A stretch of 64,000 bases of DNA from Rahnella laticis (GTDB lineage: Bacteria > Pseudomonadota > Gammaproteobacteria > Enterobacterales > Enterobacteriaceae), in NCBI RefSeq assembly GCF_015644585.1, contig NZ_JADOBI010000018.1, positions 1 through 64,000 of the forward strand, in the 5' to 3' direction. The notes beneath the pieces are model-generated. The model was not told the DNA's origin, made no database searches, and was given only the letters and a program-made list of their open reading frames with translations. The position numbers and the translations under genes were made by a program. Shown here in pieces: positions 40,083-59,843 of the stretch (positions are counted from its first letter, which is position 1; each line of letters starts with the position of its first letter).

Positions 40083-42659
40083 TTACACCATGTCTTTCAG
40101 ACGATAAATCCATTCCAGTGCCTGACGTGGCGAGAGAGAATCTGCGTCCAGAGATTCCAGCGCTTCTACCGCAGGCGACACTTCTTCTGCCAGCAGCGTC
40201 AGCTGCGGGCCATCCACTTTGCTGGCGGCGGCGTTGTTGGACAACGTTTCCAGCTCTTTCAGTTTCTGGCGTGCACGTTTAATGACATCACGCGGGACAC
40301 CCGCCAGCGCTGCGACGGCCAGACCATAACTTTTGCTGGCTGCGCCATCCTGCACGCTGTGCATAAACGCAATGGTATCGCCGTGTTCAATGGCATCAAG
40401 GTGAACGTTGACCGTACCTTCCATTTTTTCCGGCAGCGTCGTCAGCTCGAAATAATGGGTCGCGAACAGCGTCATGGCTTTAATGCGGCTGGCCAGATTC
40501 TCGGCGCACGCCCAGGCAAGCGACAAACCGTCGTAAGTGGATGTGCCGCGGCCGATTTCATCCATCAGCACCAGGCTATTTTCCGTGGCGTTATGCAGGA
40601 TGTTCGCGGTTTCGGTCATTTCCACCATGAAGGTTGAACGGCCAGAAGCCAGATCATCTGCCGCGCCGACGCGGGTGAATATCCGGTCTACGGGGCCGAT
40701 AACAGCGGTATCCGCAGGAACGTAGCTGCCAATATGCGCCATCAGGACAATCAGTGCCGCCTGACGCATATAGGTACTTTTACCGCCCATATTCGGGCCG
40801 GTGATGATCAGCATCCGGCGCACCGGAGACATGTTCAGCGGGTTGGAAATAAACGGTTCTTTCAGTACCTGTTCCACGACCGGATGGCGGCCACCGGTAA
40901 TGTTGATGCCGGGTTTCTCGCTCATCGTCGGGCAGGTGTAACTGAGCGTGTAGGCACGTTCTGCCAGATTACTCAGAACATCCAGCTCGGCCAGCGCGCT
41001 GGCGCTTTGCTGCAAAGCTGACAGATGCGGCATCAGCAAATCAAACAGCTCTTCGTACAGCGCTTTCTCCAGCGACAGGGCTTTGCCTTTGGACGTCAGA
41101 ACCTTATCTTCATACTCTTTCAGTTCCGGAATGATGTAACGTTCGGCGTTTTTGAGCGTCTGGCGGCGGACATAATGAATAGGAACAAGATGGCTTTGGC
41201 GGCGGCTCACTTCGATGTAATAACCATGTACACCGTTAAACCCGACCTTCAGCGTTTCCAGCCCCAGCTTTTCGCGTTCGCGAATTTCTAAGCGGTCAAG
41301 ATAGTCTGTTGCACCGTCAGCCAGTGCGCGCCATTCGTCCAGCTCCGCGTTATAGCCTGGCGAAATCACACCGCCGTCACGCACCAGAACCGGCGGGGCT
41401 TCAACAACCGCACGTTCAAGCAGTTCGACCAGCTCTGTAAATTCGCCGGTTTGCTCCACCAGCGTAGCGACATGCGCGGCGTCAGCGTCCTGCAAAATCC
41501 CACGGATTTCCGGCAGTTGCTGTAATGCATGACGCATGCGGGCAAGATCGCGTGGCCGGGCGCTGCGCAGGGCAAGTCGCGCCAGAATACGTTCGAGATC
41601 GCCGACCTGACGCAGCACGGGCTGCAAGTCTGCGGTCAGATCCTGTAATGCCCCGATTGCCTGCTGACGATGGGTCAGCATTTTGATGTCGCGGCTTGGC
41701 ATGTGGATCCAGCGTTTGAGCATACGGCTGCCCATCGGCGTGACGGCCTGATCCAGGACTGCCGCCAGCGTATTTTCCACGCCACCGGCCAGATTTTGTG
41801 TCAGTTCCAGATTACGGCGCGTCGCCGCATCCATAATGATGCCATCCTGCTGGCGCTCCATGGTCACGCCACGAATATGCGGCAGGGCGGTGCGCTGGGT
41901 ATCTTTCACATATTGCAGCAGGCAACCGGCGGCGCGCAGAGCCTGAGTGGCCTGTTCCACGCCAAACCCGCTCAGATCGCGGGTGCCGAACTGGAGATTC
42001 AGCTGTTGCTTTGCGGTTTCGAGCTCAAATTCCCACATCGGACGACGGCGCAGGCCGCGGCGGGAAGCGATAAGCGGCATGGCTTCAAAGCTTTCCGGAT
42101 ACAGAAGTTCTGCCGGATTTGTACGCTGTAATTCAGCGGCCATGGTTTCCAGATCGTCTGGCTGGGCGACACGAAAACGACCGGAGCTGATATCCAGCGT
42201 CGCATAGCCAAAGCCACGCCCGTCCTGCCAGATGGCCGCCAGCAGATTGTCATGACGCTCGCTCAGTAAGGCTTCATCACTGACCGTGCCGGGCGTTACG
42301 ATCCGCACAATTTTGCGCTCAACCGGCCCTTTGCTCAGCGCCGGATCGCCAATCTGTTCAGCGATAGCGACGGATTCGCCCAGTTGCACCAGCTTGGCCA
42401 GATAGCCTTCAACGGCGTGATAAGGCACACCGGCCATCGGAATCGGTTCGCCTGCCGAAGCGCCGCGTTTGGTCAGGGAAATATCCATCAGCTGAGACGC
42501 ACGTTTTGCGTCGTCATAAAACAGTTCGTAGAAGTCTCCCATACGATAAAACAGCAGAACTTCCGGGTTCTCTGCCTTAAGACGCAGGTACTGCTGCATC
42601 ATGGGGGTGTGGTCTGATAGATCCTTGCTTGCAGACTCTTTCATTTTGATTTTACTCAT
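40083..42659 (-). CDS. mutS: DNA mismatch repair protein MutS (N-terminus replaced by island DNA)
   Basis: 858 residues (E. coli 853); binds mismatches and recruits MutL. Visible: mismatch-contact loop [11 protein letters not shown], core and clamp domains, Walker [16 protein letters not shown], Walker [17 protein letters not shown], and [13 protein letters not shown]. Residues from HTPMMQQY on are normal. The first 16 or so ([16 protein letters not shown]) differ from the host-type MSGLDA found stranded at 59843, because the island inserted in this codon stretch and supplies a new 5' end. The first ATG has no RBS; the second (residue 6, 42644) has GAGT/AAAA upstream and may be the real start. 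Mismatch recognition should be intact. Confidence 0.95.
42589..42611. repeat. Left attachment repeat (attL, inside mutS)
   Basis: TACTGCTGCATCAT, then G, then GGGGTGTG. It matches 59803-59825 at 22 of 23 positions, and similarity stops abruptly at both sides. This copy lies in the functional mutS reading frame (codons for HTPMMQQY). Confidence 0.88.
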
Positions 42660-42728
42660 TTTTATATTCGATCAAGTGCTCATGTGGCCCCAGGTGAAAC
42701 CCTTTCAAACTCACATAAACCCATAAAT

Positions 42729-42789
42729 TTGTAGCTCACTTGTAGCCCAATGCGTGATAAATTGGTTTTACTCTTTCTCTGGGCTACAA
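42729..42789. promoter_or_regulatory. TTGTAGC repeats and inverted repeat at the integrase start
   Basis: TTGTAGC occurs at 42729 and 42740, 11 bases apart (one helical turn). TTGTAGCCCA at 42740-42749 is answered by TGGGCTACAA at 42780-42789, a perfect 10-bp inverted repeat around the first integrase codons. These could be integrase arm-type sites near attL or an operator for autoregulation. The region between the mutS and integrase starts must also hold both promoters. Confidence 0.45.
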
Positions 42790-44261
42790 ATGGTGGTGAT
42801 GCTTTGAAAACAACTCTCAGTCAGGGTTTTATTATCAAGAAGTTAAGTATCAATGTTAAGCCTGCACTCAGTAACTCTGGAAAAGTCGTTTTCGAAGCTA
42901 ACCCTGACCAAAAACCTTACATAGTCTTTGATGATCACAGAGAAGCCCCAGTGGGATTCGGGGTGAAAGTAAGTTTGACGAAAAAAACGTATGTAATCCA
43001 GCGAAGAGTGTCTTCCGGTGACCGTGATGTGAAAGAAGGCAAGAAACCGAGTTCGGTCTTAAAAGTGAAAGTAGGGAATGTGTCTGATTTTCCCAGTATC
43101 GATCAAGCCCGTGTAGTCGCTCGACAGTTGGTTCAGACAATGATCGCAACTAAAAGAAATCCTAATAAAATCAAGAGAGAAGTAGATTCAGCAGAACTCA
43201 CAATGAGCGAAATCTTTGCTCAATACAGAAATCATTTAATGGGTAGATCTAAACCAGCTAAACCAAACACCCTTGCGGTGCTTGATAAAGCCGAGAACCG
43301 TTTGAAAGACTGGGCTGGTTTGCGAGTAAAGGATTTAACAGGTAATGAAATTCTTCGTAAGTTTGATGAAATTGCCAGCAGAGCCAGAACAGCAGCAGAG
43401 CAAACATTCAGGTGGGCTAACGTTGCAGTCAAACACGCGATTGAAATTGAAGCAGGGAATGCTCAGACACAACAACGACAACCTTCCATGTCGTATAACC
43501 CTTTTTCCATTTTAAAGGTGCAGAAAAAATTCAGGACTCGCTCGGAACTGGAAGACAGCTACCGAGCAAAAGGTGTCAGAAATCCATTGTCACCAAAAGA
43601 CACGCTAGGGCGTTTTTTAAATGCCTTACATGACAAGAGAAACTTCAACCGTCTTGGTTGCGATTACCTACTGTTGACTATCCTGCTGGGAGCCAGGAAA
43701 GAAGAAACAGCTTCGCTGCGTTGGAGAGAATCTCTTACCAGTGAAGAAGCCAAAATTATCAGCTATGTTGATCTTGATAACAGAATCATTCGTTTTTACG
43801 ACACAAAAAATCGCAACGATCATGAACTACCAGTTTGTGATGCTGTAAAGCGGATACTTGAAGACAGACGAGATATCGTCACTAACACAGAAACTTGTCC
43901 AGATAAGCAGAAGTGGGTCTTTCCAGCACGTTCGCCAAGAAGCAAAGCAGGGCACTATTCTGACAGCAAAAGTTTACGTGAATATTTATGTCAGGATGCC
44001 GGTATCGTAAAGCTTGGAATGCATGACCTACGGCGAACTTTCGGGCGTGTTGCTGAGGAACATACTTCTTATGCTGTTGTGAAGAGATTACTCAATCATA
44101 GAAATACAACAGATCCTACTGAAAGATATGCTATTCCTGAGCAGACTCGAATTTTAGAAGCACTACAACGAATAGAGTTGCATATGCTGATGACGGCACC
44201 TAAGTTATACAATGTGCTGTTAGCTTCAGTACGGTATCCGTTGTTGCCAGCAGATGAATAA
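42750..44261 (+). CDS. Tyrosine-type site-specific integrase of the island
   Basis: 503 residues from the first ATG; a TTG at 42804 with GGTGGTGAT upstream (giving MKTTLSQGFIIKKL) is an alternative start. P4/bacteriophage-type layout: an N-terminal DNA-binding part, a core-binding part (about 150-230), and a catalytic domain with R316 (LLGARKEETASLRW), K353, H425-x-x-R428 (GMHDLRRTF), H450 (LLNHRNTTD) and nucleophile Y460 (ERYAIPEQ). All catalytic residues are present. It lies next to attL and reads into the island, so it is the likely enzyme for insertion into mutS. Confidence 0.92.
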   Translation: MRDKLVLLFLWATNGGDALKTTLSQGFIIKKLSINVKPALSNSGKVVFEANPDQKPYIVFDDHREAPVGFGVKVSLTKKTYVIQRRVSSGDRDVKEGKKPSSVLKVKVGNVSDFPSIDQARVVARQLVQTMIATKRNPNKIKREVDSAELTMSEIFAQYRNHLMGRSKPAKPNTLAVLDKAENRLKDWAGLRVKDLTGNEILRKFDEIASRARTAAEQTFRWANVAVKHAIEIEAGNAQTQQRQPSMSYNPFSILKVQKKFRTRSELEDSYRAKGVRNPLSPKDTLGRFLNALHDKRNFNRLGCDYLLLTILLGARKEETASLRWRESLTSEEAKIISYVDLDNRIIRFYDTKNRNDHELPVCDAVKRILEDRRDIVTNTETCPDKQKWVFPARSPRSKAGHYSDSKSLREYLCQDAGIVKLGMHDLRRTFGRVAEEHTSYAVVKRLLNHRNTTDPTERYAIPEQTRILEALQRIELHMLMTAPKLYNVLLASVRYPLLPADE

Positions 44262-44425
44262 AAGATAGTATAAGTAGTGAAGGAGTCTCGTGGAGGGAAT
44301 CACAAAAATTTTGTATCTACTTCATAAAGCATTGCAAAGATAAAAATTATAGTTCCGTTCCGTGATTAAAAACATTCATTATTTAAGTTTGATCACTATT
44401 TTGCTGTGAACTTCTGAGGATTAGA

Positions 44426-45310
44426 ATGATGGACGACTCAATAAAAATAAGAATCAGCAATCAGATATTTAAGTATGAAGTAAGACTACCGTCATCAGGT
44501 CTGGATGATAACACATTTACATTGGATTTTTTTGATGGGAAGTATCGGCAAGACGACTTGGTTGGGTTAATCCGAGATGTTGTTCCATACTTCTCCTTAA
44601 CAGCAGATGAAATGAGAGAGCTAGATCCCTCCGAGATTAATAAACGTAGCTTTACTCGAATCTCTGATGCACGGCGTCAGGCAAAAGGAGATTATGGGGA
44701 ATTAATGCTTTTTTTGATTTTAAGTATCTTTTATGATGTGCCAAAATTCGTAACGAAGGCAAGATTACGTTCTACGACAAGAGAGCAGATAAAGGGATTT
44801 GATTGCGCTCATTTTTCAGTTGAAAATGATAAAATCACTCTTTGGTTAGGTGAAGCAAAATTTCATAAATCTATAAGCGGAGCAATATCATCAGCACTGA
44901 GTTCGCTAACAGACCATCTGAACGATAAAAGTAGAATAGCAAGTGAACTAAAGTTATTGGGTGGGGAAATTGAGATAAACAAAACCCTTGATAGAAAACT
45001 CTATTTACAATTAAAGAGTTATGTCGATGGTGGGAAGAGTCTGGACTCAGTTGAAATCGCTGTTCCAGTGTTATTGACTTACGACAGTAAGTATATAGGT
45101 CAATGCTGCGGAAAGGGAAAGGTTTTAATGGATAAAGATCCATTTCTATCAGAATTGGGAACGGAGCTAACCAAACATTTCGAAGATATATATAAAAAGG
45201 CTTGGCCTAAAGACTCAAATATAAAACTAGTATTTTTCCTTTTTCCGTTTGAGGATGTGGCAAAGTTAAAAGAAAATATAGAGTTAGTTGAACAGGCTAT
45301 GAAGTTTTGA
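44426..45310 (+). CDS. hamA: Hachiman anti-phage protein HamA (DUF1837 nuclease)
   Basis: 294 residues. Matches the HamA/DUF1837 pattern: a conserved core with GDYGELMLFLILS, KGFDCAHFSV and LWLGEAKFHKSISGA. These give a PD-(D/E)xK-like set, E92, D126 and E143-x-K145. In Hachiman, HamA is the DNA-degrading effector held in check by HamB and released on phage-induced DNA damage. It is 13 bases upstream of hamB on the same strand. Identification rests on the motif set plus the partner; I cannot run a profile search. Strongly AT-rich compared with the core genome. Confidence 0.85.
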   Translation: MMDDSIKIRISNQIFKYEVRLPSSGLDDNTFTLDFFDGKYRQDDLVGLIRDVVPYFSLTADEMRELDPSEINKRSFTRISDARRQAKGDYGELMLFLILSIFYDVPKFVTKARLRSTTREQIKGFDCAHFSVENDKITLWLGEAKFHKSISGAISSALSSLTDHLNDKSRIASELKLLGGEIEINKTLDRKLYLQLKSYVDGGKSLDSVEIAVPVLLTYDSKYIGQCCGKGKVLMDKDPFLSELGTELTKHFEDIYKKAWPKDSNIKLVFFLFPFEDVAKLKENIELVEQAMKF

Positions 45311-45323: not shown

Positions 45324-47558
45324 ATGATTATTGAAAACATTGATATCGAATTAGAAGAAATAAAAAAAACAAAAGGCAGAGAAACTAACGTTGTTGAAGA
45401 CTTCCTAATTGATATTTATCGTCTTCTTGATAATAATGAAAACTATAATTTATGTGTAAAAGCAATATGCCATATTGCCAATCTTCATTTAGAAGATGCA
45501 ATGGTTCAACAGCTTTTGCACGATTGCATTATAAAATCGAGAATTTTCTTGTACGATGACATGCTTGAAAATAGCGAAATAGGCTATAACCCAAGTGTTT
45601 CTCCACAAGACATATTCTTAAAAGCATTCTACACAAGCTCTGTATCTGAAACAACTTTAACCAAACCGCAAAAAGAGATATTTAATGAGTTTCAGACGAA
45701 CCGACGATTAATTGTAAGTGCTCCTACTTCATTTGGAAAAACTAGAATAATTCGTGAAATAATTTCTCATAATGATTACAAAATGATCGTGATTATTATG
45801 CCAACAGTATCATTGCTTTCAGAGTCATATAACGATTTTAAGCAAGAATTCTCTGATAGGTATATAGTATCTAAATCATCTAAAATAAAAATAGAAGAAG
45901 AAAAAGAATATATACTTATTCTTACACCGGAAAGAATGAGTGTTTTAATGCAAGATAATGTTCATATGAATGTAGATTTTTTCGTGATGGATGAGATCTA
46001 CAAAGCTGACTACAAGCTGAATGATGACAGATTTAGAGTGTTTGCAGATATATTATACAGATTGACAAGGAGTGGGGCTGATTTATATCTAATTGGACCA
46101 TATATTAGTGAGTTTAGTGAGGGTTTTCGAAATAAATTCAGCATCAAGATGTTAAAATTTGATATTGAAATAGTGCAAAAAGATTATTACGAGTTAGATT
46201 ATATTAACCAAAGAGGGATTCATAATATAGAGGGGGCAACAATTAGAGTTGTCGGTGATAAATATAAGAATTTGAAGAGAATTATAGGGAATGAAAGTAT
46301 CGATGGGAAGTATTTAATTTATAGATATAGAAAGCAATATGTGGAAGATCTTGCGGAAAGGCTTTTAGGCGAACTACAAGAGAAGAAACATAATGAGAGT
46401 CTGGTCGAATATTTAGAAAGTAATATTTCAAAGAATTGGTCTTTGGTTAAATGTTTAAAAAAAGGAATTGCTTTTCATCATGGCGCAATGCCAAGGCATA
46501 TACAAGACTTAATCATCGATGAGTTTAATAAAAGTAGCGGTGAGGGAGTAAATTACTTATTTTGTACGACTTCTCTAACCGAAGGAGTTAATTCTACGGC
46601 AAAAAACGTTGTTCTCTATGACTTGAAAATAGGTAATGGCGAAGAAATAAAAAGTCTTGATAGGAAAAATATAGAAGGGCGGGCAGGGAGATTCATGCAA
46701 CATTTCCTTGGGAGAGTTTTTTACTTTGAGCAGATTGAAAAAAGTGAAAACCAAAATACCAACGTAGAGATAGAGTTTATTGATAGTGGTGATCCTAAAT
46801 TGGAAACGTTAGTTCAATTAAATGACGCTGATATAATAGGAGCTAATAGGGTTGAATATCAAAAATTCATTGAAAATCTATTGAAATTAAAAATCCCCCT
46901 TGATTTATTGAAGGGAAACAAATTTGTAGATATTTCTGGGCAAATATCAATGGTGGAGAGTTTGAGAGTTAATGGTAATTTGGATAAGTACTTTTTTTCT
47001 ACCCAAATACCTGATAAGGGAATTTTAGAAAATATCTTATCGATTATTTACGACCTTCTATTCACTGAAGGCAATAAAGGTGGTAGTTTTTCAGGGGAGA
47101 TAGGGAAAAAGAACCTCTTAAATTTAACGAAATATTACGTATATTTAACGCCATCATTTCCTGTTTTATTGAATTCAGATACTGTGAAGTTTTTAAGGAA
47201 AACAGAGAATTCAAGAATAAGATTTACATTTGATTTGATCACTAAGTATTTTGAATTTATGTGGCCTCGGTATATAAAGGCATTTGAAAGTATATTTAAT
47301 TTTGTTGCAAATGAAAAAAAATCAAAGGAAATAAGTCTAGATTATATAGTTTCTTTGCTTGAATATGGTACTAATGATAGTCACGAAATTATTCTACGTG
47401 ATGCAGGAATACCTAGAGAGATAATGAAAAAAATATCAAGTGTATTTTACAATTGCGAAAACCATCAAGACATTCAAAATACATTTAAAAGCAGAAGGTT
47501 GGAGATTATAAAAAAATTAAGTAATATAGAGTTGCGAATCCTGGATAAATACATTTAA
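45324..47558 (+). CDS. hamB: Hachiman anti-phage helicase HamB
   Basis: 744 residues, superfamily 2 helicase. Walker A APTSFGKTRIIREI (133-146), motif II VMDEIYKAD (DE-I-Y rather than DEAH, 221-229), HHGAMPRHIQDLIIDEF, motif V-like TTSLTEGVNSTAKNVVLYD (415-433) and motif VI IEGRAGRFMQHFLGR (450-464). A long C-terminal part without known motif follows. In Hachiman it translocates on DNA and senses damage, controlling HamA. RBS GAGGG precedes the start. Adjacent hamA supports the call. Confidence 0.87.
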   Translation: MIIENIDIELEEIKKTKGRETNVVEDFLIDIYRLLDNNENYNLCVKAICHIANLHLEDAMVQQLLHDCIIKSRIFLYDDMLENSEIGYNPSVSPQDIFLKAFYTSSVSETTLTKPQKEIFNEFQTNRRLIVSAPTSFGKTRIIREIISHNDYKMIVIIMPTVSLLSESYNDFKQEFSDRYIVSKSSKIKIEEEKEYILILTPERMSVLMQDNVHMNVDFFVMDEIYKADYKLNDDRFRVFADILYRLTRSGADLYLIGPYISEFSEGFRNKFSIKMLKFDIEIVQKDYYELDYINQRGIHNIEGATIRVVGDKYKNLKRIIGNESIDGKYLIYRYRKQYVEDLAERLLGELQEKKHNESLVEYLESNISKNWSLVKCLKKGIAFHHGAMPRHIQDLIIDEFNKSSGEGVNYLFCTTSLTEGVNSTAKNVVLYDLKIGNGEEIKSLDRKNIEGRAGRFMQHFLGRVFYFEQIEKSENQNTNVEIEFIDSGDPKLETLVQLNDADIIGANRVEYQKFIENLLKLKIPLDLLKGNKFVDISGQISMVESLRVNGNLDKYFFSTQIPDKGILENILSIIYDLLFTEGNKGGSFSGEIGKKNLLNLTKYYVYLTPSFPVLLNSDTVKFLRKTENSRIRFTFDLITKYFEFMWPRYIKAFESIFNFVANEKKSKEISLDYIVSLLEYGTNDSHEIILRDAGIPREIMKKISSVFYNCENHQDIQNTFKSRRLEIIKKLSNIELRILDKYI

Positions 47559-47601: not shown

Positions 47602-48201
47602 ATGGGCGTCGTGGAGACATTAAGAGAACTATCTGAGGTCTGGCGTTTGTTCAGTGATATGCCAGACGATACAACACTAAGTGTTGACTTGGCCGCTCTA
47701 TATCTTGGTGTCAGTGTAAAAACGTTAGCAAGATATCGACAGAGTGGTAGTGGGCCACAATATATCCAGTATCAATCGGAAGACAGCAAGGCCAGAAACC
47801 AGAGAATAAACTACCTTTTAAAGGATCTTCGTTCCTGGCGAGATAACCACAAAGTAAGCAACACAATGCACGCGGCTCAGGTGCGTGGGTTAGCTTTCAA
47901 ATCATTGATCGATTTCTGCGAACCTCAACCTTTCTGGAAGATTGCCAATAATTCAAAAGATATAAACTTAATTATATCTCATGCTCTTATTATTTCTGAT
48001 GATGACTTCAAGAAAAACCTATTAGAGCCAAACGCAGACGTGGTATGGATTTCAATTGAAAATGCTCTATTTCAGAAGTGGAAAATTAAAGAAGAAAGAA
48101 ATATTTGGAACGAAATTTTTACGTCAACATTAGATAATATAGCTCGTGCTTCGGAATCAGAACAGGAAAGATATACGTTGAATGATGCCTTTGATGAATA
48201 G
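47602..48201 (+). CDS. Small HTH DNA-binding protein downstream of hamAB
   Basis: 199 residues with a good RBS (AGGAG). Residues 25-75 contain an excisionase/AlpA-like winged HTH: LSVDLAALYLGVSVKTLARYRQSG then GPQYIQY and a basic stretch INYLLKDLRSWRDNHK. The rest (about 90-199) is unknown. It starts 43 bases after hamB and could be transcribed with it. Possible roles: regulator of the defence genes, or a directionality factor for the integrase, which otherwise lacks a visible partner. Neither is shown by sequence. Confidence 0.6.
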   Translation: MGVVETLRELSEVWRLFSDMPDDTTLSVDLAALYLGVSVKTLARYRQSGSGPQYIQYQSEDSKARNQRINYLLKDLRSWRDNHKVSNTMHAAQVRGLAFKSLIDFCEPQPFWKIANNSKDINLIISHALIISDDDFKKNLLEPNADVVWISIENALFQKWKIKEERNIWNEIFTSTLDNIARASESEQERYTLNDAFDE

Positions 48202-48250: not shown

Positions 48251-48835
48251 TTACTTTTCTCTATACATCTCTATATTGAAATCTTTTCCAAATGGATTTA
48301 CCACATCAAGTGTTTTGTAATTATGCTCATCAATTATTAATCTATATGATTGACTTGCACCGTTAGCCATCATGTCTTCAACTACCGGGAATTTCTTATG
48401 TGTGATATTTTCTAATAAAGAGAGGTTTTTAAGATCAATATTTTCTCCATTATAAATAATTTTCTCAGGAGTTGATTTCAAATTGTTTAAAGAGATAACT
48501 AATTCTTTATTATTTATCTCCCACTCCCCCGCGCCATTGACTAAATAAGAAACATAAATATCAGAGTTGTTGATTTTATCTGCTTTATAAGATATTTTTC
48601 CGCTAACATTGTATTTTCCATTTGAGAAATAAGAGGTCTTGTCCTTTACAGAGACAACAATTCCTTTGTTATCATACGAATATGAATAATTTGTTGTCCA
48701 GGTTCCAATTATATCGTCTTTTCTGTGCATATCCGGTGGGTTAGGAAAGAAATATGAATATATTCCGAAAAGAGAACCAGCAGATCCGATGATAATTGAT
48801 AATCCAATTAAAAATGATTTCAATATCTTCCTCAT
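48251..48835 (-). CDS. Unknown membrane-anchored protein
   Basis: 194 residues: one N-terminal membrane span (about 8-29, LIGLSIIIGSAGSLFGIYSYFF) and an outer domain beginning DIIGTWTTNYSYSYDNKGIV, with alternating beta-strand-like pattern (lipocalin-like reading GTW...FSNGKYNVSGKI is only suggestive). Probably periplasmic side. It converges on the HTH gene and stands alone on its strand. No function can be given. Very AT-rich. Confidence 0.6.
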   Translation of the reverse strand: MRKILKSFLIGLSIIIGSAGSLFGIYSYFFPNPPDMHRKDDIIGTWTTNYSYSYDNKGIVVSVKDKTSYFSNGKYNVSGKISYKADKINNSDIYVSYLVNGAGEWEINNKELVISLNNLKSTPEKIIYNGENIDLKNLSLLENITHKKFPVVEDMMANGASQSYRLIIDEHNYKTLDVVNPFGKDFNIEMYREK

Positions 48836-51998: not shown

Positions 51999-53952
51999 TA
52001 TAAAAGACATACAGATCCGAAACGTTACCAACTCTATGAGTTTATTCATTAGTAATATGCAGGATAAGGCGACAAATGATATGCATAAATCCTGGGGTTC
52101 GGATGTGTGGGTTATAAAAAAACAAAAAATAAAATTTACTAAATTAAGTGAAGAACACTTTCATAATGAAAAAATGAATTCGGATTTTATCGATTTTGCA
52201 AAAGCATATATTACCCATGAATATCCTTTTGAATCAAACAGAGTAGAGATAGTAATCGCCACTCTAAGGTGCGTTGAATATATCCTCATTAAAACACATT
52301 CGTGTGCTAATATATGCCTTGTTAATTATACTATTCTTGATGAAATTATTTCCTTTATCAAAAATAGATATAGTAATAATTATGCTTATGTTATTGGTCG
52401 GGAATTGAAAGGTATATGTTCATTTTTATTCAAAAATAAACTAACATACAAAAATATAGCGGGGTGGAAAAGTCCTATCAGATTTAAACAAGATTATTTT
52501 TTAGATGATAAAGAAAAACATAATAAAAAAATCCCAAACGAAGAGATTATATATATCTTCGCAGATATTTTCAGCCAGGAGTTAACAGATAAACGAGATA
52601 TTTTTACAACATCCGTTGTTGCTTTATTAATGTCAGCACCGTCACGTATTTCAGAAGTTCTATCTTTATCTATTGATTGTGTATTCACAAATACAACACA
52701 GAAAGGTAATGAAAAATGGGGCTTACGATTTTGGGCAGGAAAAGGCTACGGAGGAGATATAAAATGGATTCCGAGTGTCATGGCTCCTGTCACTCAAAAA
52801 GCAATTGATAGAGTAAGAAGGTTAACTAATAAACCCAGAACGTTTGCAAAGCTGATGGAGTTAAATTTTGAAGCGTTCCATAAACAGACAAGATTCAGCC
52901 GCTATTCCGAGAGTAAATTACTAACAACTGTTCAGGTTTGTGAGGTTTTGTTAAATGAATCAATTTCAGAAAAAGAGGGAGTAAAGCTTCTAAAACGTTT
53001 ATCTATCAAATCTCATGATAATATATATTCATTAAGAACTTTATGGCAGGAATTGCAAAGCCGTCTTCCTGATGGATTCCCATGGTATAACAAAAAGAAA
53101 AATATTAAATTTAGCGATTTGCTTTTTTTATTTTTTAAAGATAGCCTTCATTTAAATAAGTCTGACAACATAATAGAATTATATACACCCCATACAAGTT
53201 CTTTTTATAGTGATACTTATTACCAAGAAAAAAGAAAAAATATTTTCGAAAGACATGAATATCAAAATGGGAACAAACAGAGTTTTCACTTTCACTCCCA
53301 TCAAATAAGACATCTATTAAATACTATAGCTCAACGTAACGGCATGACTGAATACGAAGTAGCTAAATGGTCAGGAAGAGCAAGCATAAAACAAAACAGG
53401 GTTTACAATCATGTTAGTGAAGAGGAGATAATCGAAAAATATGAATCTTTAAAGCGCGCTGCAACTAACTATACAGTTAGTGAAAATATAACAGTCCGTA
53501 ACCCTGTTTCAAGAGAAAGCTTTTTATCTGTAAGTCATGGGGCTGTTCATAAGACAGAGTTTGGATATTGCATTCATGACTACGCTATATCTCCATGTGA
53601 AAAGTTCAGAGATTGCTTAAATTGTTCAGAGCAGATCTGCATCAAAGGTTCGCTTGATAGTTTGACCAGACTCAAAGAACGATTGTCAGAAACTAATGAG
53701 TTAATTGAAACGACAATGAAAGATACAAATGAAAATGATCGTCAAATCGATAAAGATCGGTGGTTAAACTTCCATTTAAAAATAAAGGAACGATTGCAGG
53801 AGTTAATTAGTATATTAGAAAGTAAAGAGGTTCCTGAAGGATCATTCGTTCGATTATCCAATAAAAGTTACTCACACTTATCAAGAATCTATAATGCGGA
53901 AAAATTATTAAATAATAAAAAGGAAATTATTCATGTCAAAAAAATTAACTAA
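51985..53952 (+). CDS. Tyrosine recombinase 3 with cysteine-rich C-terminus
   Basis: 655 residues from the ATG at 51985, chosen because AGGAGGT (51974-51980) ends four bases before it; a GTG two codons earlier lies in that RBS. Catalytic residues: R221 (SAPSRISEVLSLS), K260, H439-x-x-R442 (SHQIRHLLN), W462 (AKWSGR) and Y474 (RVYNHV). A cysteine-rich stretch follows near 535-565 (GYCIHDY, SPCEKFRDCLNCSE), then a helical tail. Size and place recall TnpB of Tn554 (630 residues). It overlaps the genes on both sides. Confidence 0.85.
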   Translation: MSVINIKDIQIRNVTNSMSLFISNMQDKATNDMHKSWGSDVWVIKKQKIKFTKLSEEHFHNEKMNSDFIDFAKAYITHEYPFESNRVEIVIATLRCVEYILIKTHSCANICLVNYTILDEIISFIKNRYSNNYAYVIGRELKGICSFLFKNKLTYKNIAGWKSPIRFKQDYFLDDKEKHNKKIPNEEIIYIFADIFSQELTDKRDIFTTSVVALLMSAPSRISEVLSLSIDCVFTNTTQKGNEKWGLRFWAGKGYGGDIKWIPSVMAPVTQKAIDRVRRLTNKPRTFAKLMELNFEAFHKQTRFSRYSESKLLTTVQVCEVLLNESISEKEGVKLLKRLSIKSHDNIYSLRTLWQELQSRLPDGFPWYNKKKNIKFSDLLFLFFKDSLHLNKSDNIIELYTPHTSSFYSDTYYQEKRKNIFERHEYQNGNKQSFHFHSHQIRHLLNTIAQRNGMTEYEVAKWSGRASIKQNRVYNHVSEEEIIEKYESLKRAATNYTVSENITVRNPVSRESFLSVSHGAVHKTEFGYCIHDYAISPCEKFRDCLNCSEQICIKGSLDSLTRLKERLSETNELIETTMKDTNENDRQIDKDRWLNFHLKIKERLQELISILESKEVPEGSFVRLSNKSYSHLSRIYNAEKLLNNKKEIIHVKKIN

Positions 53953-54352
53953 AAATGAAAAAACTCTTATTATGAATAGGTTGCTGGGTTGGAGTAAGCC
54001 GAAAATTACCTGGGAAGAGCTTTGCGAAGAATGTGCCACTTTTCTTAGTAATAGGCCAAGTAGACAAACTTTGTCTTATCATAACGAGATAAAAGAGGCA
54101 TTTAAAAGTAAGAAGAATGGTATTAAAGATAATCATAATAATTTCAAAAAGCCTTCTTCACTTTCTATTGCTTCTCAAAGAATTTTTCATCTGGAATCCA
54201 GACTTCAACTTCTTGAAGTGGAAAATAGAAACTTAAAGCAACAATTTGTATTGTGGCAATATAATGCATTTAAACATAATATAACTAAGCATATTTTAGA
54301 TGAGCCGTTACCACTAATAGATAGAAGAAGAACTGACCGAAAACTAACTTAA
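53933..54352 (+). CDS. Small coiled-coil protein closing the recombinase block
   Basis: 139 residues, basic, with a short N-terminal helical part (GWSKPKITWEELCEECATFL) and a coiled coil (about 85-110, SQRIFHLESRLQLLEVENRN). RBS AAGGA lies before the ATG, inside the preceding gene, with a 20-base overlap. In Tn554 the third gene tnpC (125 residues) encodes a small accessory protein affecting transposition, and gamma-mobile-trio modules also pair recombinases with a small protein (GmtX). I take it as the counterpart by position and size, not by sequence match. Confidence 0.6.
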   Translation: MSKKLTKNEKTLIMNRLLGWSKPKITWEELCEECATFLSNRPSRQTLSYHNEIKEAFKSKKNGIKDNHNNFKKPSSLSIASQRIFHLESRLQLLEVENRNLKQQFVLWQYNAFKHNITKHILDEPLPLIDRRRTDRKLT

Positions 54353-54477
54353 ATATGGAATTAATACATTACGATGTAAATAAATGTTTACGGAATGCTT
54401 GATTAATTTATATTATATGATAAAACTATATACATGTTCGTCAGGAAGACGATTATAGATTGCAAGGATGCAACCAT

Positions 54478-54903
54478 ATGGAAAAAGAAAAGAATTATCT
54501 CTCGAAAGAAGAGCAATTTATCATACTTATTGATAAATATATTACTGATACATACAGTCCAGAAGATGAGATGTATACATACAAGCTATACCTGCTCTTT
54601 GTGGGCTACCATATAAAATATTTTAGTCCAATCCCTCAATATTGTTGTTCAACTAATAACGTTGACAATATCATGCAAATGTTTTGTAGTGTATTTAAAT
54701 GTTTGAAAAGTAACTTCATCAAAAAATTAGGAAATAAAGAAGTCATTTTTATCCAATTAAATGCACTTGTTGACTATATCGAAGGGAATCAAAGCAGATT
54801 AGAGCAAGTCTATGTCGAGTTAAAAGCCCAGTATGAAATGAAAGAGATCAGCAGAGAGATCGTTATCAATAAAGGCAGTTCCAGAAAAAGGGCAAGGCTG
54901 TGA
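54478..54903 (+). CDS. Unknown small protein
   Basis: 141 residues from the ATG with AAGGA upstream; a TTG six codons earlier is also open. Mostly helical, with acidic N-terminus and a basic end (KGSSRKRARL). No family recognised. It follows the recombinase block on the same strand after a 125-base gap and is closed by a terminator. Confidence 0.55.
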   Translation: MEKEKNYLSKEEQFIILIDKYITDTYSPEDEMYTYKLYLLFVGYHIKYFSPIPQYCCSTNNVDNIMQMFCSVFKCLKSNFIKKLGNKEVIFIQLNALVDYIEGNQSRLEQVYVELKAQYEMKEISREIVINKGSSRKRARL

Positions 54904-54910
54904 TGATTTA

Positions 54911-54936: not shown

Positions 54937-54953
54937 TGTAAGGGATTTAGTCA

Positions 54954-55274
54954 TTAATTTCCTATCAATTTCCATCCATCGTCATTTTTTAAAAATTTCA
55001 GGGTGGTAGTTCGGTGTTCATTATTAATAGTTACTTCTGCATTACACTTATAGCTTTTATCAGATTCATTTATACAATCAATCTTCTTAACTGTTTTTAG
55101 CGTTCTAAGCATTGCTTCCGGAACATTTGGGTTAATGGCTCGAACTGCAGAATTTCCGCTTTCTATAGATTGATTTAAGGCATTAAACATATCTTGCTCA
55201 GATGGTTCGCTATCGCACCCTGCAAGCATGAAAGACGAAATTATGACTGCTGCAACAAAAGTATATTTTTTCAT
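54954..55274 (-). CDS. Small lipoprotein
   Basis: 106 residues with a lipoprotein signal peptide (MKKYTFVAAVIISSFMLAGC, lipobox LAGC). The mature part has two further cysteines (IDCINES, YKCNAE) and beta-strand-like ends (EVTINNEHRTTTLKFLKNDD). No family recognised. Single gene on its strand; role in the island unknown. Confidence 0.65.
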   Translation of the reverse strand: MKKYTFVAAVIISSFMLAGCDSEPSEQDMFNALNQSIESGNSAVRAINPNVPEAMLRTLKTVKKIDCINESDKSYKCNAEVTINNEHRTTTLKFLKNDDGWKLIGN

Positions 55275-55438: not shown

Positions 55439-55507
55439 ATTACGGAAAATCAATCGTTTAAAAAAGCCTGGATTTTATGATTGACCCAGTTGAACCGTAA
55501 CTTTCTG

Positions 55508-56755
55508 TTATTTATGATTTTTAATATTTGCAGTGAGTTGTGTTTGAATTGATGGGGTTAATGCGTGGGCTTTTAGGACTCTCTTGAATTTTTTGAAAGT
55601 ATGTATCAAGAAAAAACCAAGTATTTTCAGCAAGCTAAGGAAAGGAAGCCATAAGATGAAGCGGGGAGGTTTTGCTTTGTTCCTTTTTTGTGAGTTTTGC
55701 AAATCGAGAACGGCATTAATTATACGTTTGCGCTTATCTTCCTTAACTGCTGTCTTCGGTGTCAAAGACGGTGTAAGAGCAATAGAAGCCTTTGGAGAAG
55801 GAGTAAGAGAAGCTATTTTTTCTGAAATCGTTAGCGTTTCCCTAGCTGTCTTGATTACCATCCCTGCTGGTGCTGGTGCTGGTGCTGGTGCTGGTGCTGG
55901 TGCTGGTGCTGGTGCTGGTGCTGGTGCTGGGATAGCTTCCTTTGTCTCTCGAAGAGCTTCTAAGTGGTCTGGGTTGTAGTTAAGCTGCTTTTGAAGATTT
56001 ACCCAAGAGTATGCCTTTCCAAGTTGAGATGCCTTGAAAGCTATATCGCGGTAGGAGAACGAGAACCCGTTCATTTTCTCGGTAGAAGCGACATTTGCCG
56101 TCCAGCCGACTTCCGCTTCTTCCAGCCTCTTGATAAAAGTTAAAAGGTCAGGTGTATCTGTCAAACTTTTATCAAGTATCTGCTGGAGAGCTTCCTTAGG
56201 GGAGGGAAGGCCAGTCCGTTCAGAAAGCATCTGTTCATTCCGAGAGATTCTCTTCCGCTTCGGTTGTGCTTGTGAGGAGGAAGATGCAGTTTTGGTCACT
56301 GTCAGACCGTGAGCGATGTCGAGTTCACTAATGATCTGGGTGCTGATAAGGTTTTCGTTCCTACCAAGGTAAAGTTTACCGCCGTTGAAGTCGATACGAC
56401 TGGCGATAATGTGTATGTGCTGACCTGCTGAGTCATCATGTAGGACATAGCAGCGTAGATGAGTGTCATTGAACCCCATTCTCTTCATGTAATCATCTGC
56501 GAACATAACCCATTTGTCTTTTGACAGCGATTCACCTTCAGGCAACCGAAGCGAATTGTGCCAAACGGGTTTTTCTACTTCCGGGCGCTGTTGTTTTGAC
56601 AGATTAAACTCTTCAATAAGTTCTGTTGCCAAAGCACCGACCAAATTACCGCCGATCACATATGGATCACACCTATGGTGTTGTCCTGGTTTTAAAACGT
56701 AAAACACTGCACCTTCGAATTGCTTACCCCGTTTTATCTTCTGCATTCCCTTCAT
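55508..56755 (-). CDS. Relaxase (mobilization nuclease) with C-terminal membrane span
   Basis: 415 residues. The N-terminal half is a HUH relaxase: an early Tyr in AVFYVLKPGQ, WHNSLRLPEGE (H66) and the histidine triad H106, H113 and H115 (CYVLHDDSAGQHIHIIASRID), as in MobP-type relaxases. Then comes an 11-fold Ala-Pro repeat (about 280-302), and near 365-390 a hydrophobic span (FILWLPFLSLLKILGFFLI) with a basic tail. It would nick oriT to mobilize the island with a helper element. RBS AAGGAG lies before the start, inside mobC, which it overlaps by 32 bases. Confidence 0.82.
   Translation of the reverse strand: MKGMQKIKRGKQFEGAVFYVLKPGQHHRCDPYVIGGNLVGALATELIEEFNLSKQQRPEVEKPVWHNSLRLPEGESLSKDKWVMFADDYMKRMGFNDTHLRCYVLHDDSAGQHIHIIASRIDFNGGKLYLGRNENLISTQIISELDIAHGLTVTKTASSSSQAQPKRKRISRNEQMLSERTGLPSPKEALQQILDKSLTDTPDLLTFIKRLEEAEVGWTANVASTEKMNGFSFSYRDIAFKASQLGKAYSWVNLQKQLNYNPDHLEALRETKEAIPAPAPAPAPAPAPAPAPAPAPAGMVIKTARETLTISEKIASLTPSPKASIALTPSLTPKTAVKEDKRKRIINAVLDLQNSQKRNKAKPPRFILWLPFLSLLKILGFFLIHTFKKFKRVLKAHALTPSIQTQLTANIKNHK
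55865..55930. repeat. Hexanucleotide tandem repeat, 11 x TGCTGG, in the relaxase gene
   Basis: Eleven perfect copies of a 6-bp unit encode an Ala-Pro linker on the minus strand. Changes in copy number keep the reading frame, so linker length can vary without loss of the protein. Confidence 0.95.
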
Positions 56756-57077
56756 AAGAAGCTCCTTGCAGCAAATTGGCTCGAAGCTCTCTGATTAGTT
56801 TTTTTATAAAGAAAATCTCTGTTTTTGTCAGACCGCTATCGAAGCTCTTACTGTTCAAGTGAGAAATAACACGATTAAACTGTTGTGCGATTTCGCCTAA
56901 CTTAATCCAGGTAGCGTGATTTATTTCAGGAATAATAGGAGGTAGTTGATTCAGCGATGCTATGCGAAGCCATTCGCCTTTACTCTTAGTGTTTCGCTTT
57001 AAATTGAGAAGCTCTAATTCCTCTTTGTTAAATCTTGCACTGACGCAATGCTTTCGAAGATTTGATTTGTTTTCCAT
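56724..57077 (-). CDS. MobC-like relaxosome accessory protein
   Basis: 117 residues from the ATG at 57077, which has AAAGGAG upstream; a second ATG ten codons earlier is less likely. It begins with a ribbon-helix-helix-like segment (CVSARFNKEELELLNLKRN) and has the MobC-type helix HATWIKLGEIAQQFNRVISH. Such proteins bind oriT and help the relaxase. It overlaps the relaxase start, forming a two-gene mobilization operon. Confidence 0.78.
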   Translation of the reverse strand: MENKSNLRKHCVSARFNKEELELLNLKRNTKSKGEWLRIASLNQLPPIIPEINHATWIKLGEIAQQFNRVISHLNSKSFDSGLTKTEIFFIKKLIRELRANLLQGASYEGNAEDKTG

Positions 57078-57214
57078 ATAAACTCCTTTTATATGTATGT
57101 TCAACATTAATAAGCATATTCCTTATGCTTTACGTTATTATATTATTTATATAGTGGTTGCGAACAATGTCAATAGCTTCGCTTTTGATTTTTTCTTTTC
57201 TGACTGAAAGGAGG

Positions 57215-57267
57215 AAAAGCAAGGCAACTCAGAGAAGCGGAGCTTCGGAGAGTTAGCCCTTGCTTTT
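57215..57267. other. Candidate origin of transfer (cruciform upstream of mobC)
   Basis: Nested inverted repeats: AAAAGCAAGG (57215-57224) with CCTTGCTTTT (57258-57267), AACTC with GAGTT inside, and GAAGC-GGA-GCTTC in the centre. It lies 137 bases upstream of the mobC start, the usual place of oriT. A terminator role is unlikely because no gene ends there. The nick site cannot be identified by eye. Confidence 0.5.
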
Positions 57268-57339
57268 TATTTTTAAAGTAACATTGACAATTAGTATAGG
57301 TTTGATATTTTTATGCATATAAGATAAAGGTTAAAAGAT

Positions 57340-57579
57340 ATGTATATGAAAAAGAAACTTGTTATAATTATTTCAGTAATTTTTTATTTTTCGTTCATTG
57401 TTTTATCAGTGTGTTTTCTCAATGCCACCCCACATTTTAGTTTGAGTAATCTGGACAATACTAATAATGGATATGTTATTTTAGCTGTGGTAATAGAAAT
57501 TTGCATAATACTATCACCACTCGTTATTATTTTTTCCAAGGTTATTTTTGATGAGAACCCTGGTCAGATGAACGAATAG
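57340..57579 (+). CDS. Small two-span membrane protein
   Basis: 79 residues with two hydrophobic spans (about 6-27 and 47-68) joined by a polar loop (SNLDNTNNG). An RBS-like AAAGG precedes the ATG. Its 3' end overlaps the converging next gene by 38 bases. No family recognised. Confidence 0.5.
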   Translation: MYMKKKLVIIISVIFYFSFIVLSVCFLNATPHFSLSNLDNTNNGYVILAVVIEICIILSPLVIIFSKVIFDENPGQMNE

Positions 57580-57979
57580 CCTTAATAAAATCTATACTTT
57601 CTGATGCAGCAATACCTGACTTAATGGTTAATAAAATAGTGTAGGTGAGTAATAGAATATATCCAATAAGGTTGGTCATCAATGCTTGAAAGAAATCTAT
57701 TTTCTTGCCGGAGAGCGTATTCAATATTAATAATGAGGTTGTTAAAGCTGTTACTGAATAAAGAATAGTGTCATTACATGATTTAATGATGGTTCGTACT
57801 TGGTTATTTCTTGAAAATAAAATAAACATTGAGATTGTTATCGCAGGAATCAAAGGCATTAGTAGCCAATAGATGCTATCTATCGGTTGAAACCTCACCC
57901 AAATTATTAATAAAATTGTTGTAATGATCGATATGAGATATCCATGAAATAAGGAATCGCTAATTTTATTTTTTTTCAT
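57542..57979 (-). CDS. Four-span membrane protein of unknown function
   Basis: 145 residues with four hydrophobic spans (about 12-28, 33-54, 71-88, 95-118). The ends are polar and charged. It starts 27 bases after the TPR gene on the same strand, so the two are probably co-transcribed. No family recognised; TPR plus membrane partner is a common pattern in accessory regions but gives no function. Confidence 0.55.
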   Translation of the reverse strand: MKKNKISDSLFHGYLISIITTILLIIWVRFQPIDSIYWLLMPLIPAITISMFILFSRNNQVRTIIKSCNDTILYSVTALTTSLLILNTLSGKKIDFFQALMTNLIGYILLLTYTILLTIKSGIAASESIDFIKAIRSSDQGSHQK

Positions 57980-58006
57980 TTTGGTAATCCTATGTGTGAA
58001 ATTGAA

Positions 58007-59032
58007 TTATTTCAATTTCAGTGTATTGATTTTTGATATCGATTTATCAAGATTTAGTTTTTTATATAATGAATGTGCGAGTATACAGTAACTTTCAAAT
58101 TTATCGCTATTCTGCTCCTTAGCTATAACGGCTAATGTATAATATATATCTGATATTAGTCTATCATTTAAAGTACTTTTAAGTGATAGAGCTTCTTTGC
58201 ATAGTTTCTCTGCTAAATCTAATTTTCCTATATCTGAATAAAGCACGGCTAAGTTATACTTACAAAGAGCGATAAACTTGCTGTTTTTAGATTTTATTGA
58301 TCTCTCTAAAGCTTTTTCAAGAAGTTTTTCGCACTTTTCAAACTGATTCAGTTGCTTGTAGACATTGGAGGCATTGCCATAGTTCGTGATTATTTTAACA
58401 TCATTTTCTAACATTTCTGAAATATCAATAGCCTCATTGATATATCTAAGGGCCTTGTCTAAATTATCCATTTTGACTGAGTCTGTCTTACTGTATTCTG
58501 CTATTCTTTTTAGACTAATAACTATGTTAGTCAATAAGTCAGACTTAAGGATTCTTAGGTCATTCTTCTCTTTAGTATTGTCTTCTTTGTCTATTTCTAT
58601 ATCTAAGCAAGGTAACATTTCTGATAGAATGTCAAAGGCCTTGGTGTAATTTTCTTTATTGTTGAGTAGAACTGCTATATTATTATTCGCTTTAATTTGA
58701 CCAACTGCATCACCCAGCTCTATCGCGATGTTTAATGATTTTGTTTGATATAGCTCAGATTTGTGCCAATCAGATATATTTTTATAAAATATACCAAGAT
58801 TTCCGTATGTGTATTGAAGATCTTTTCTTGAAAGTTCAGTTTTTGTCAATAATTTATGTGCTATTTCAATAGCCTTATGATATTCGCCTTTAAAATTAAA
58901 GTGCAAAGAATAGGCATATAAAACTAAGTGATTGTTCTCATTCAGATCTAATGCTCTCTTAAAAAAATCTTCAGCAATATCCAAATTTAACATGGATGCA
59001 ATTGTCGCTATATCCATATAAGTTAAAGACAT
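58007..59032 (-). CDS. TPR-repeat protein, frame open upstream without a start
   Basis: 341 residues from the first ATG, mostly tetratricopeptide repeats (AIEIAHKLL, YGNLGIFYKNISDWHKSELY, IKANNNIAVLLNNKENYTKAF, CKYNLAVLYSDIGKLDLAEKL). That ATG has no RBS. The same frame stays open for 79 more codons to 59269 and reads as continuous helical protein (IELSKALDDNDKIRATELLN), but without ATG, GTG or TTG. It then meets the A9-G run of the upstream ORF. The real product is therefore probably the upstream anchor joined by a frameshift, about 491 residues. A homopolymer error or inactivated gene is the alternative. Confidence 0.7.
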   Translation of the reverse strand: MSLTYMDIATIASMLNLDIAEDFFKRALDLNENNHLVLYAYSLHFNFKGEYHKAIEIAHKLLTKTELSRKDLQYTYGNLGIFYKNISDWHKSELYQTKSLNIAIELGDAVGQIKANNNIAVLLNNKENYTKAFDILSEMLPCLDIEIDKEDNTKEKNDLRILKSDLLTNIVISLKRIAEYSKTDSVKMDNLDKALRYINEAIDISEMLENDVKIITNYGNASNVYKQLNQFEKCEKLLEKALERSIKSKNSKFIALCKYNLAVLYSDIGKLDLAEKLCKEALSLKSTLNDRLISDIYYTLAVIAKEQNSDKFESYCILAHSLYKKLNLDKSISKINTLKLK

Positions 59033-59247
59033 TGTATCTTGATATTGAATTAAATAATTAGAGTGTTCAGTTAATATATTTTCATGTATAGATTGTTTTG
59101 CGTTAACTTCCTGAATGATTATATTTAATAATTCGGTTGCTCTTATTTTGTCATTATCATCTAAAGCCTTCGATAATTCAATTTTATTATGATCGTTAGA
59201 GTGGGAAAGATTAGAAATAATATCAGAGTAAAATGCATCAACCCCTT

Positions 59248-59481
59248 TTATTTCGTGTATGTGGTATTCTTTTTTTTTGATTGGTCAATGTTTATTGTAT
59301 TGTTGTTGATATTATTTTCTCCACTTATAACAATATTATTGTTAATAGCAGAATGATTTTTTGGAGAGCTTTCCCCTTTTTTTCTTTTCATTTTTACAAA
59401 GCCAGTTATAAAAGATATTGCTGCGAAGAATACACCTAACGCACTAATTAAATTGATATTTTCATTTATGATTCTTATCAT
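59248..59481 (-). CDS. Membrane-anchor ORF, likely 5' part of the TPR gene
   Basis: 77 codons: one membrane span (about 9-29, INLISALGVFFAAISFITGF), a basic patch (KMKRKKGE) and an Asn/Ile-rich beta-like stretch (NNNIVISGENNINNNTINID), a type of linker often seen before TPR or other sensor domains. It ends a few codons after a slippery run. After residue 71 a -1 shift leads directly into the TPR frame. RBS is weak (AAGTAAATATA region). Confidence 0.6.
   Translation of the reverse strand: MIRIINENINLISALGVFFAAISFITGFVKMKRKKGESSPKNHSAINNNIVISGENNINNNTINIDQSKKKNTTYTK
59269..59278 (-). other. A9-G slippery run joining the anchor and TPR frames
   Basis: On the minus strand the codons read TCA-AAA-AAA-AAG, containing the dnaX-type heptamer A-AAA-AAG in the zero frame. 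A -1 slip makes the next codon GAA (59269-59267), exactly in the TPR frame. A run of nine A also favours RNA polymerase slippage. No downstream stem or upstream Shine-Dalgarno-like stimulator is obvious. Confidence 0.6.
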
Positions 59482-59789
59482 TATATTTACCTAAATCAAT
59501 AGAATTTTATACTGATAACATTTTTTGTATAAATATGCAAGATTTATCTGTGGAGATGCTATTGATTTTAAGATGATTTTTATCAAAGTGAAAGTCCTGA
59601 AAACTATCTTCCTTTTGGAGCAGTTTGGCCTCTTTGTTCAATAGAACCTGATGTTGCCTCTTCGTTTTTTACAAATAATCTTTGCCTATTTTATTGCGGA
59701 GTAGAATACCTCCAAGCAACTAAAAGTATCCCATCAGTAAACTAGAATCGATATGGAGTTCATTTTGTACCTATATTTCAACAAGTTAA
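59482..59789. other. Right end of the island, no gene
   Basis: 308 AT-rich bases between the anchor ORF and the mutS remnant. No gene or clear repeat is seen. Integrase arm sites would be expected here, but no copy of the left-end TTGTAGC pair was noticed. Confidence 0.4.
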
Positions 59790-59843
59790 TTATTTAAAAA
59801 AATACTGCTGCATCATTGGGGTGTGAGCATCCAGCCCGCTCAT
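59790..59843 (-). pseudogene. mutS: Stranded original 5' end of mutS
   Basis: From ATG at 59843 the minus strand encodes [14 protein letters not shown], then island codons FFK and a stop. E. coli MutS begins [20 protein letters not shown], so this is the host's own mutS start, cut off from the gene by the island. An AAGAGTAAAG element upstream is a plausible RBS, so the fragment may still be transcribed and translated as a 17-residue peptide. Confidence 0.88.
59803..59825. repeat. Right attachment repeat (attR)
   Basis: TACTGCTGCATCAT, then T, then GGGGTGTG; identical to attL except for the middle T. It lies in the stranded mutS codons and marks the right island boundary. Confidence 0.88.

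Follow-up and report, generated by a model that had tools for sequence, protein, structure and literature searches.

The window analysed here, a stretch of 64,000 nucleotides from Rahnella laticis (contig NZ_JADOBI010000018.1), carries a genomic island of about 17 kb (42589–59825, as refined in this work) inserted into the first codons of the mismatch-repair gene mutS. At the island's left end lies a 23-bp repeat copy (42589–42611) at which mutS continues as a complete gene on the minus strand (40083–42644, open frame to 42659), with Pfam MutS domains I–V and a start placed by comparison at an island ATG, 42644. The second copy (59803–59825) differs by one mismatch; the pair is unique within the window at up to three mismatches, none being expected from 100 shuffles, and both copies encode HTPMMQQY in the mutS frame. 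The two copies represent the left attachment site (attL; minus strand, codons HTPMMQQ(Y), with a 14-bp core at 42589–42602, ATGATGCAGCAGTA) and the right attachment site (attR; minus strand, core 59803–59816). At attR, the frame that begins with ATG 59843 (MSGLDA) runs through HTPMMQQY into three foreign codons (FFK) and a stop; frame reading and comparison with same-genus genomes identify it as the stranded native mutS start (59790–59843, minus strand). A tyrosine integrase (PF00589) is encoded at the left end on the plus strand (42804–44261), its start being placed at the M of MK(T/M)TL, where six aligned Escherichia coli relatives begin. No tRNA or tmRNA genes were found in the window by ARAGORN. 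The repeat in the mutS frame, the second mutS-like start followed by three foreign codons and a stop, and the intact integrase had been described in a first-pass annotation made from the sequence alone, and were borne out by the repeat search, shuffles and translation, the integrase frame (42750–44261) having no internal stop. Insertion within the first mutS codons was also supported, and the right bound, given there as 59843, moves to 59825.

The empty site is present in relatives. A same-genus search covered 14 genomes, including that of the window, and the right flank was matched in all 14. In seven of the 13 other genomes (L008–L014; L and G numbers denote loci and genomes of the comparison) a native start of the MSGLDA/MTGLDA type is joined directly to mutS and to the mltB-side flank, and in the remaining six (L149–L154), where mltB is not beside mutS, the start is again native-type and ends in LDA or LDS. 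Island-type starts are absent from all 13, and the first-pass reading thus survives the comparison set for it beforehand, a search for island-free relatives whose own start is of the island type. The alignment proposed with it gave the same picture: the window flanks, joined at the core, match the natural empty site of G011 end to end over about 600 bases, apart from two single-base gaps and scattered substitutions. Another genome of the genus (G003; L153, L155) contains two mutS-like copies with an identical native-type start and open frames of 860 and 504 amino acids.

The point of exchange can be placed by comparing eight E. coli islands with strain K-12, taken alone as the native allele. 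In K-12 the site reads CATACGCCC directly followed by ATGATGCAGCAGTA. At attR all eight islands carry CATACGCCC, the K-12 codons for HTP, and attL deviates in six of the eight; the HTP codons at attL are therefore island-derived and the exchange falls inside the 14-bp core. Read from these sequences, the insertion point lies between the codons for HTP and those for MMQQY, with crossover within ATGATGCAGCAGTA. The element's own attachment site (attP) would therefore encode residues imitating those of the host as far as the point of exchange.

The integrase family is associated with mutS. A scan of genome_contigs with the integrase alignment gave 67 pattern-matching stretches, which yielded 30 loci. 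At 27 of these a full-length or near full-length mutS directly adjoins the integrase match, the two being divergently oriented; a search of genomes for this neighbourhood had been proposed in the first-pass annotation. Completeness was judged by alignment over the 842 residues of the query, the shortest mutS reaching residue 831, and the 27 include a number of loci where the integrase match is only a fragment. The hosts of these mutS-adjacent loci include Citrobacter, Salmonella, Erwinia, Dickeya, Klebsiella, Serratia, Pectobacterium, Methylotenera and Sulfuritalea; in the last two, Betaproteobacteria, the integrases are 53–54% identical and the island supply of the mutS start is putative. In E. 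coli the integrase was matched in 133 of 5426 genomes, 132 of the matches covering at least 80% of the query. In a family-level sample of 392 genomes, 54 have an integrase match at E 0.001, often a weak one, and nine have a near full-length integrase at 69% identity or more, the window counted. At one locus (L131) an island-type mutS leader and the core stand beside an integrase fragment with no mutS behind them; another (L037, genome G254) may have reverted to the native start or may represent the distal side of an island since lost.

Between the integrase and the new mutS start, the left end of the island (42645–42803) comprises the new mutS leader and putative arm-type sites (GAGCTACAAA, TGTAGCCCA/TGGGCTACA). 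In all 23 Gammaproteobacterial loci the putative arm motif accords with the integrase clade, GAGCTACAAA occurring with KVSLTKK in 11 and (T/C)ATACAAA with KIS(A/S/T)TKK in 12, although the loci are related and the motifs were picked after viewing the alignment. Both motifs are missing from the two Betaproteobacterial loci checked (L122, L123). Integrase relatives were absent from viral_contigs. Twelve phage records matched, all under 60% (24–27% among the eight matches listed), as did 13 plasmid records, of which 12 were under 60% and one, from Salmonella, covered 27% of the query at 81%. A phage or plasmid origin of the integrase gene (int) was rejected on these grounds. A comparison with solved structures gave no match at E 0.01.

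The position of the island-supplied start was assessed in 71 loci fetched through the integrase rather than through a leader pattern. Nine of them have no such mutS-joined start, and the loci gave 42 distinct 60-base leaders joined to mutS, two of which are native-like (L004, L037). Of the 40 non-native leaders, 35 have ATG as codon 11 before HTP (the exceptions being L031 and the distant L122, L123, L133 and L135), and RefSeq places the mutS start at this codon in all nine E. coli islands read; none of these nine mutS genes is flagged as a pseudogene. ATG 42644 is therefore the most likely start in the window on sequence grounds. The first ATG, 42659, which had been read as the start earlier, was rejected as the likely start, since only 19 of the 40 leaders have ATG as codon 16 before HTP (ACG in 13). 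An earlier set of 32 aligned left ends was left out of this choice because the pattern that selected them itself demanded the later ATG.

The replacement MutS N-terminus (42612–42644, minus strand) thus most likely consists of 11 island-coded residues before HTPMMQQY; elsewhere it reads MNESIDKDLSD or MNEDIDKDFSS. Its codons appear to be constrained at the amino-acid level. Entropy at codon positions 1/2/3 is 0.60/0.47/1.13 over 34 distinct codings (0.51/0.37/1.04 over 17 codings when limited to loci with full-length int), pN/pS is 0.34, and the 30 bases upstream of the start, at 0.53/0.74/0.62, have no such codon phase. These values lend support rather than a formal test, the sequences being related and the pattern fixing frame and length, which excludes leaders with indels.

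Starts of the island type are found where little or nothing of an island is left. In the family-level sample, the pattern occurs in 32 of 392 genomes and 23 of 154 genera; nine of the 32 hold a full-length integrase, and some of the other 23 loci are cut by contig ends. In 20 kb around ten of these 23, a search with 22 island query proteins (E 1e-4) found no island protein except integrase fragments in L143 and L144. Within Pectobacterium, 23 of 25 genomes have an island-type mutS start, and no island genes were found in the 20-kb stretches of four members (L136–L139). The genus was recognized through G436, which agrees in coordinates and leaders with the Pectobacterium fontis contig of L128.

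Such starts could alternatively be the ancestral native mutS start, copied by the element, rather than the remains of lost islands. Nine of the ten loci were aligned upstream with the island left end. Identity is 40–55% in L141 and L136–L138, with L136–L138 reaching 40–51%, and 26–29% in L142, which matches well only at GAGTAAAATCA.TATG and has ordinary-looking synteny; L142 and L136–L138 would fit an ancestral start. However, L140, L143, L144 and L145 retain the left end at 64–82% (100 columns, against L006/L053), two of them with int fragments, a fragment of int also lies beside mutS in Pectobacterium fontis (L128), and other Pectobacterium leaders hold a stretch resembling the arm region. 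An ancestral origin is on balance unlikely. At L142 (G033), frames judged by eye to be mltB-, pncC- and recA-like lie upstream of mutS, and its leader, GAGTAAAATCA.TATG, may be an ancient remnant or a chance likeness.

A swap acting upon an earlier swap is found in Pectobacterium G433. Here an island with integrase, Hachiman genes, a helix-turn-helix (HTH) protein and relaxase, without gin match, lies inside a mutS whose start was already of the island type; that older start now stands 15.5 kb off, soon ended by a stop, and mutS reads from a second such start. The first-pass suggestion that exchange between islands acts on mutS itself finds its example in this genome, where the newer island replaced an already foreign-type start. 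A locus of G426 (L157) has a pair of re-started leaders, alike in host type and separated by 2.8 kb; one is joined to mutS and the other to the right end of an island, and the locus looks like a collapsed island.

Replacement of everything upstream of the core also concerns the regulation of mutS. A candidate mutS promoter (42831–42859, minus strand; TTAACA-17-GATAAT) lies inside int, at a position common to many relatives. No promoter site was found in the shorter leader stretch scanned first. At least one site occurs in 33 of 57 leaders versus 375 of 1140 shuffles, the shared position being one that also codes for int. In E. coli, the small RNA ArcZ is described as pairing with the mutS leader at −25 to −15 and Hfq as using an AAN-type site in the 5′ untranslated region (PMC11331407). 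The ArcZ-matching stretch, ATCAGGGA(A/G)CCGGA, is left on the attR side in all nine E. coli islands, at 10.4–19.7 kb from the new start; the 150-base leaders of these islands contain none of four author-chosen ArcZ-complementary words. Duplex energies, each set against 60 single-base shuffles, gave z values for ArcZ of −1.24 in native K-12 and −0.52 to +1.57 in the nine island leaders, and for SdsR of −1.27 and −1.21 to +1.53, respectively. The ArcZ argument is based on the displaced complementary site rather than on these energies. Since the native leaders of the window's genus that were inspected lack the E. coli ArcZ stretch, this argument is limited to E. coli. An AAN run, present in the native leader and absent from that of the window, recurs in three of eight E. 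coli island leaders (L005, L048, L050), so that loss of Hfq control is not general. It is possible, though rather doubtful, that defence islands dedicated to mutS take over the control of mismatch repair, removing the ArcZ site (and the Hfq site where the leader lacks one) through which MutS is reduced in stationary phase, and supplying a promoter that overlaps int; the same tentative proposal includes an effect of island carriage on stress-induced mutation and a takeover that outlives the island as a fixed start.

Loss of the native promoter, leader and start might instead silence or weaken mutS, so that integration and excision would act as a mutator switch, as with SpyCIM1 in mutL of Streptococcus pyogenes (PMC3430984, PMC4689407). 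The unconvincing candidate promoter is in line with silencing. The island, however, supplies an in-frame start whose codons are constrained; 27 of the 30 loci have a full-length mutS, and none of the nine in E. coli is flagged as a pseudogene; and the retention of island-type starts throughout a genus is consistent with a functional gene. A mutator switch is quite improbable.

The other genes of the island point to a mobilizable element with defence cargo. Following the integrase are hamA (44426–45310, plus strand; PF08878, PDLC00171 at E 5.5e-119) and hamB, encoding a helicase (45324–47558, plus strand; PDLC00184 at E 1.5e-297), whose adjacency defines the Hachiman anti-phage system. The HTH protein encoded next (47602–48201, plus strand) is a likely excisionase or directionality factor (phrog_66, E 2.1e-05). 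A conserved hypothetical gene (48251–48835, minus strand), recognized by island comparison, lies beside a module of four plus-strand genes in the order reported for ginABCD (PMC5385486): a ginA-like tyrosine recombinase (49283–50500; PF00589), a ginB-like recombinase (50490–51998; NF041502, 505 bits versus a cut-off of 350), a ginC-like recombinase (51979–53952; phrog_1 and a weak PF00589 match, 24 bits versus a cut-off of 27.1) and a ginD-like small protein (53933–54352), assigned by position and by homologues in the same order, with no family match.

The right part of the island contains a conserved small gene, E147 (54460–54903, plus strand), found also in gin-free islands, and, all on the minus strand, genes for a small predicted lipoprotein (54954–55274; judged by eye, with homologues in some islands), a MobA/VirD2-type relaxase (55508–56755; PF03432, E 3.6e-23), a MobC-like relaxase partner named by position only (56724–57107; no Pfam match), and two cargo proteins, one hypothetical (57542–57979; no Pfam match) and one with tetratricopeptide repeats (58007–59032; profile matches). 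A 12-bp tandem repeat at 55853–55942 encodes a Pro-Ala linker in the C-terminal part of the relaxase. No gene of a conjugation apparatus was recognized by Pfam among the 17 island proteins scanned. With an integrase at defined attachment sites and a relaxase, the island is a putative integrative and mobilizable element (IME).

The architecture of these islands is modular, judging from 16 island stretches, some of them short or ended by contig limits: an integrase and an excisionase-like protein, often a relaxase/MobC pair and ginABCD, and defence cargo. The integrase and the HTH protein are matched in all 16, the latter clearly partial in L050 and L058; ginA–D occur in ten and the relaxase in 12 (fragmentary in L050). 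In L053 and L060, which contain int, the HTH protein and relaxase, gin is lacking and a different HTH gene takes its place, and L049 has neither a gin nor a relaxase match. The gin quartet also occurs in genomes where the mutS integrase has no match, and seems to be exchanged independently, because gin proteins are 25–75% identical to those of the window versus 69–86% for the integrase. Four genomes without a mutS-integrase match (G142, G117, G271 and G182; L098–L101) encode ginB relatives at 37–41% identity. The cargo of E. coli islands, as annotated, comprises Hachiman, Drt3a/b, retron Ec48, ABC-three-component, HerA/DUF4297, TIR, nuclease plus UvrD, and ThiF/Mov34 systems. In L050 an incomplete relaxase gene lies beside an IS3 element, and this island is probably not self-mobilizable. 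Tandem or accreted islands may be present in G027 (L058), with a second island-type start beyond the far side of the island, and in G257 (C1 3840154 and 3865492), with two such starts 25 kb apart.

That the gin quartet, rather than the single integrase, moves the island, making it a GInt located at mutS by chance, is very unlikely: a gin-like operon and an AT-rich right end are present and GInts also insert at gene 5′ ends (PMC5385486), but the operon lies 6.7 kb inside instead of delimiting one end with attachment repeats, int being the gene at the edge, L053 and L060 occupy the same site with int and relaxase and without gin, gin occurs in genomes without a mutS-int match and diverges more widely than int, no convincing repeat flanks it (three straddling pairs, D4, D7 and D14, are 72–77% alike, among the 20 of 33 repeat families listed), and exact words of 10–13 bases shared across gin are about as many as in shuffles.

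Taken together, the island is very probably an integrative, and probably mobilizable, defence island that re-starts mutS by recombination between int-recognized attP and the 14-bp core. The tyrosine integrase would recombine attP with ATGATGCAGCAGTA in the mutS codons for MMQQY, exchanging all that lies upstream of the core, from the promoter and leader to the start codon, the first residues and the HTP codons, for island DNA. Because this DNA is predicted to code for an acceptable MutS N-terminus, MutS should stay produced, the native start being stranded at the other end. The integrase and the HTH protein would give back the native start on excision, the relaxase could allow transfer by a helper, and on decay of the island the swapped start may remain. 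The insertion into the mutS 5′ end with a new in-frame start, the empty site, the association with mutS, the codon constraint, the island-free starts and one serial swap are read from the sequences themselves, and we infer excision, transfer, promoter activity and function of the re-started MutS.

Several observations weigh against this reading of the island as a re-starting element. Three of the 30 integrase loci (L124, L130, L131) have no adjacent mutS, and integrase-like fragments lie near a native-like mutS start in L037 (83% identity) and L004 (33%). In L031, L122, L123, L133 and L135 the mutS start is off the usual position, and its island origin is putative. The candidate promoter does not rise above shuffles (one site in the mutS sense, with 0.9 expected on both strands), and the excisionase match of the HTH protein is weak.

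Elements with comparable features are known. Integrative and conjugative elements of the SXT/R391 group insert in the 5′ end of prfC (PMC2791158), and SXT supplies a new promoter and N-terminus there (PMC8409611). The mutS island shares with them a tyrosine integrase, a site at the 5′ end of a conserved gene and an element-supplied N-terminus, the promoter here being a candidate; it differs in its target, its size of about 17 kb, a relaxase without recognized conjugation apparatus, and the retained starts in island-free genomes described here. IMEVchUSA3 replaces the promoter and N-terminus of dusA, whose expression was demonstrated by a lacZ fusion (PMC8409611). The dusA islands are likewise of a mobilizable type at a gene 5′ end, with replaced promoter region and N-terminus, and differ in their target. 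An SGI1-like backbone is a feature of IMEVchUSA3. The phage-like SpyCI elements also occupy the 5′ end of a mismatch-repair gene: SpyCIM1 blocks mutL, producing a mutator, and in SpyCIM5 a mapped promoter inside an int pseudogene drives mutL (PMC3430984, PMC4689407). In contrast, the mutS island supplies an in-frame start, and its sequence suggests the opposite of silencing. GInts share the ginABCD-like quartet, the AT-rich right end and variable cargo (PMC5385486), whereas here gin is internal, is absent from some same-site islands and is accompanied by an extra integrase and a relaxase. In clustering anti-phage systems, the islands resemble the E. coli defence islands of PMC10121019, in whose main text a term search gave no occurrence of mutS, ygbA or fhlA. 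No report of a mutS-targeting island of this kind was found among the open-access papers listed by literature searches, supplements aside. Insertion at a 5′ end with a supplied promoter and N-terminus (prfC, dusA) and a mismatch-repair target (mutL) are thus known, and mutS as the target is apparently unreported.

The mutS gene contributes to setting the mutation rate and to limiting recombination between diverged DNA. A mobile family that is almost always found at this gene, and that brings a start able to persist through a genus, rewrites the control region of a core repair gene. The mutS site is, moreover, a clear marker for a modular class of defence islands, matched in 133 of 5426 E. coli genomes. 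The findings raise the question of whether ArcZ/Hfq control, as described for E. coli, is lost in natural strains whose mutS has been re-started. If the tentatively proposed takeover of control is true, carriage of a phage-defence island would change stress-induced mutation, and the takeover would outlast the island itself as a fixed start.

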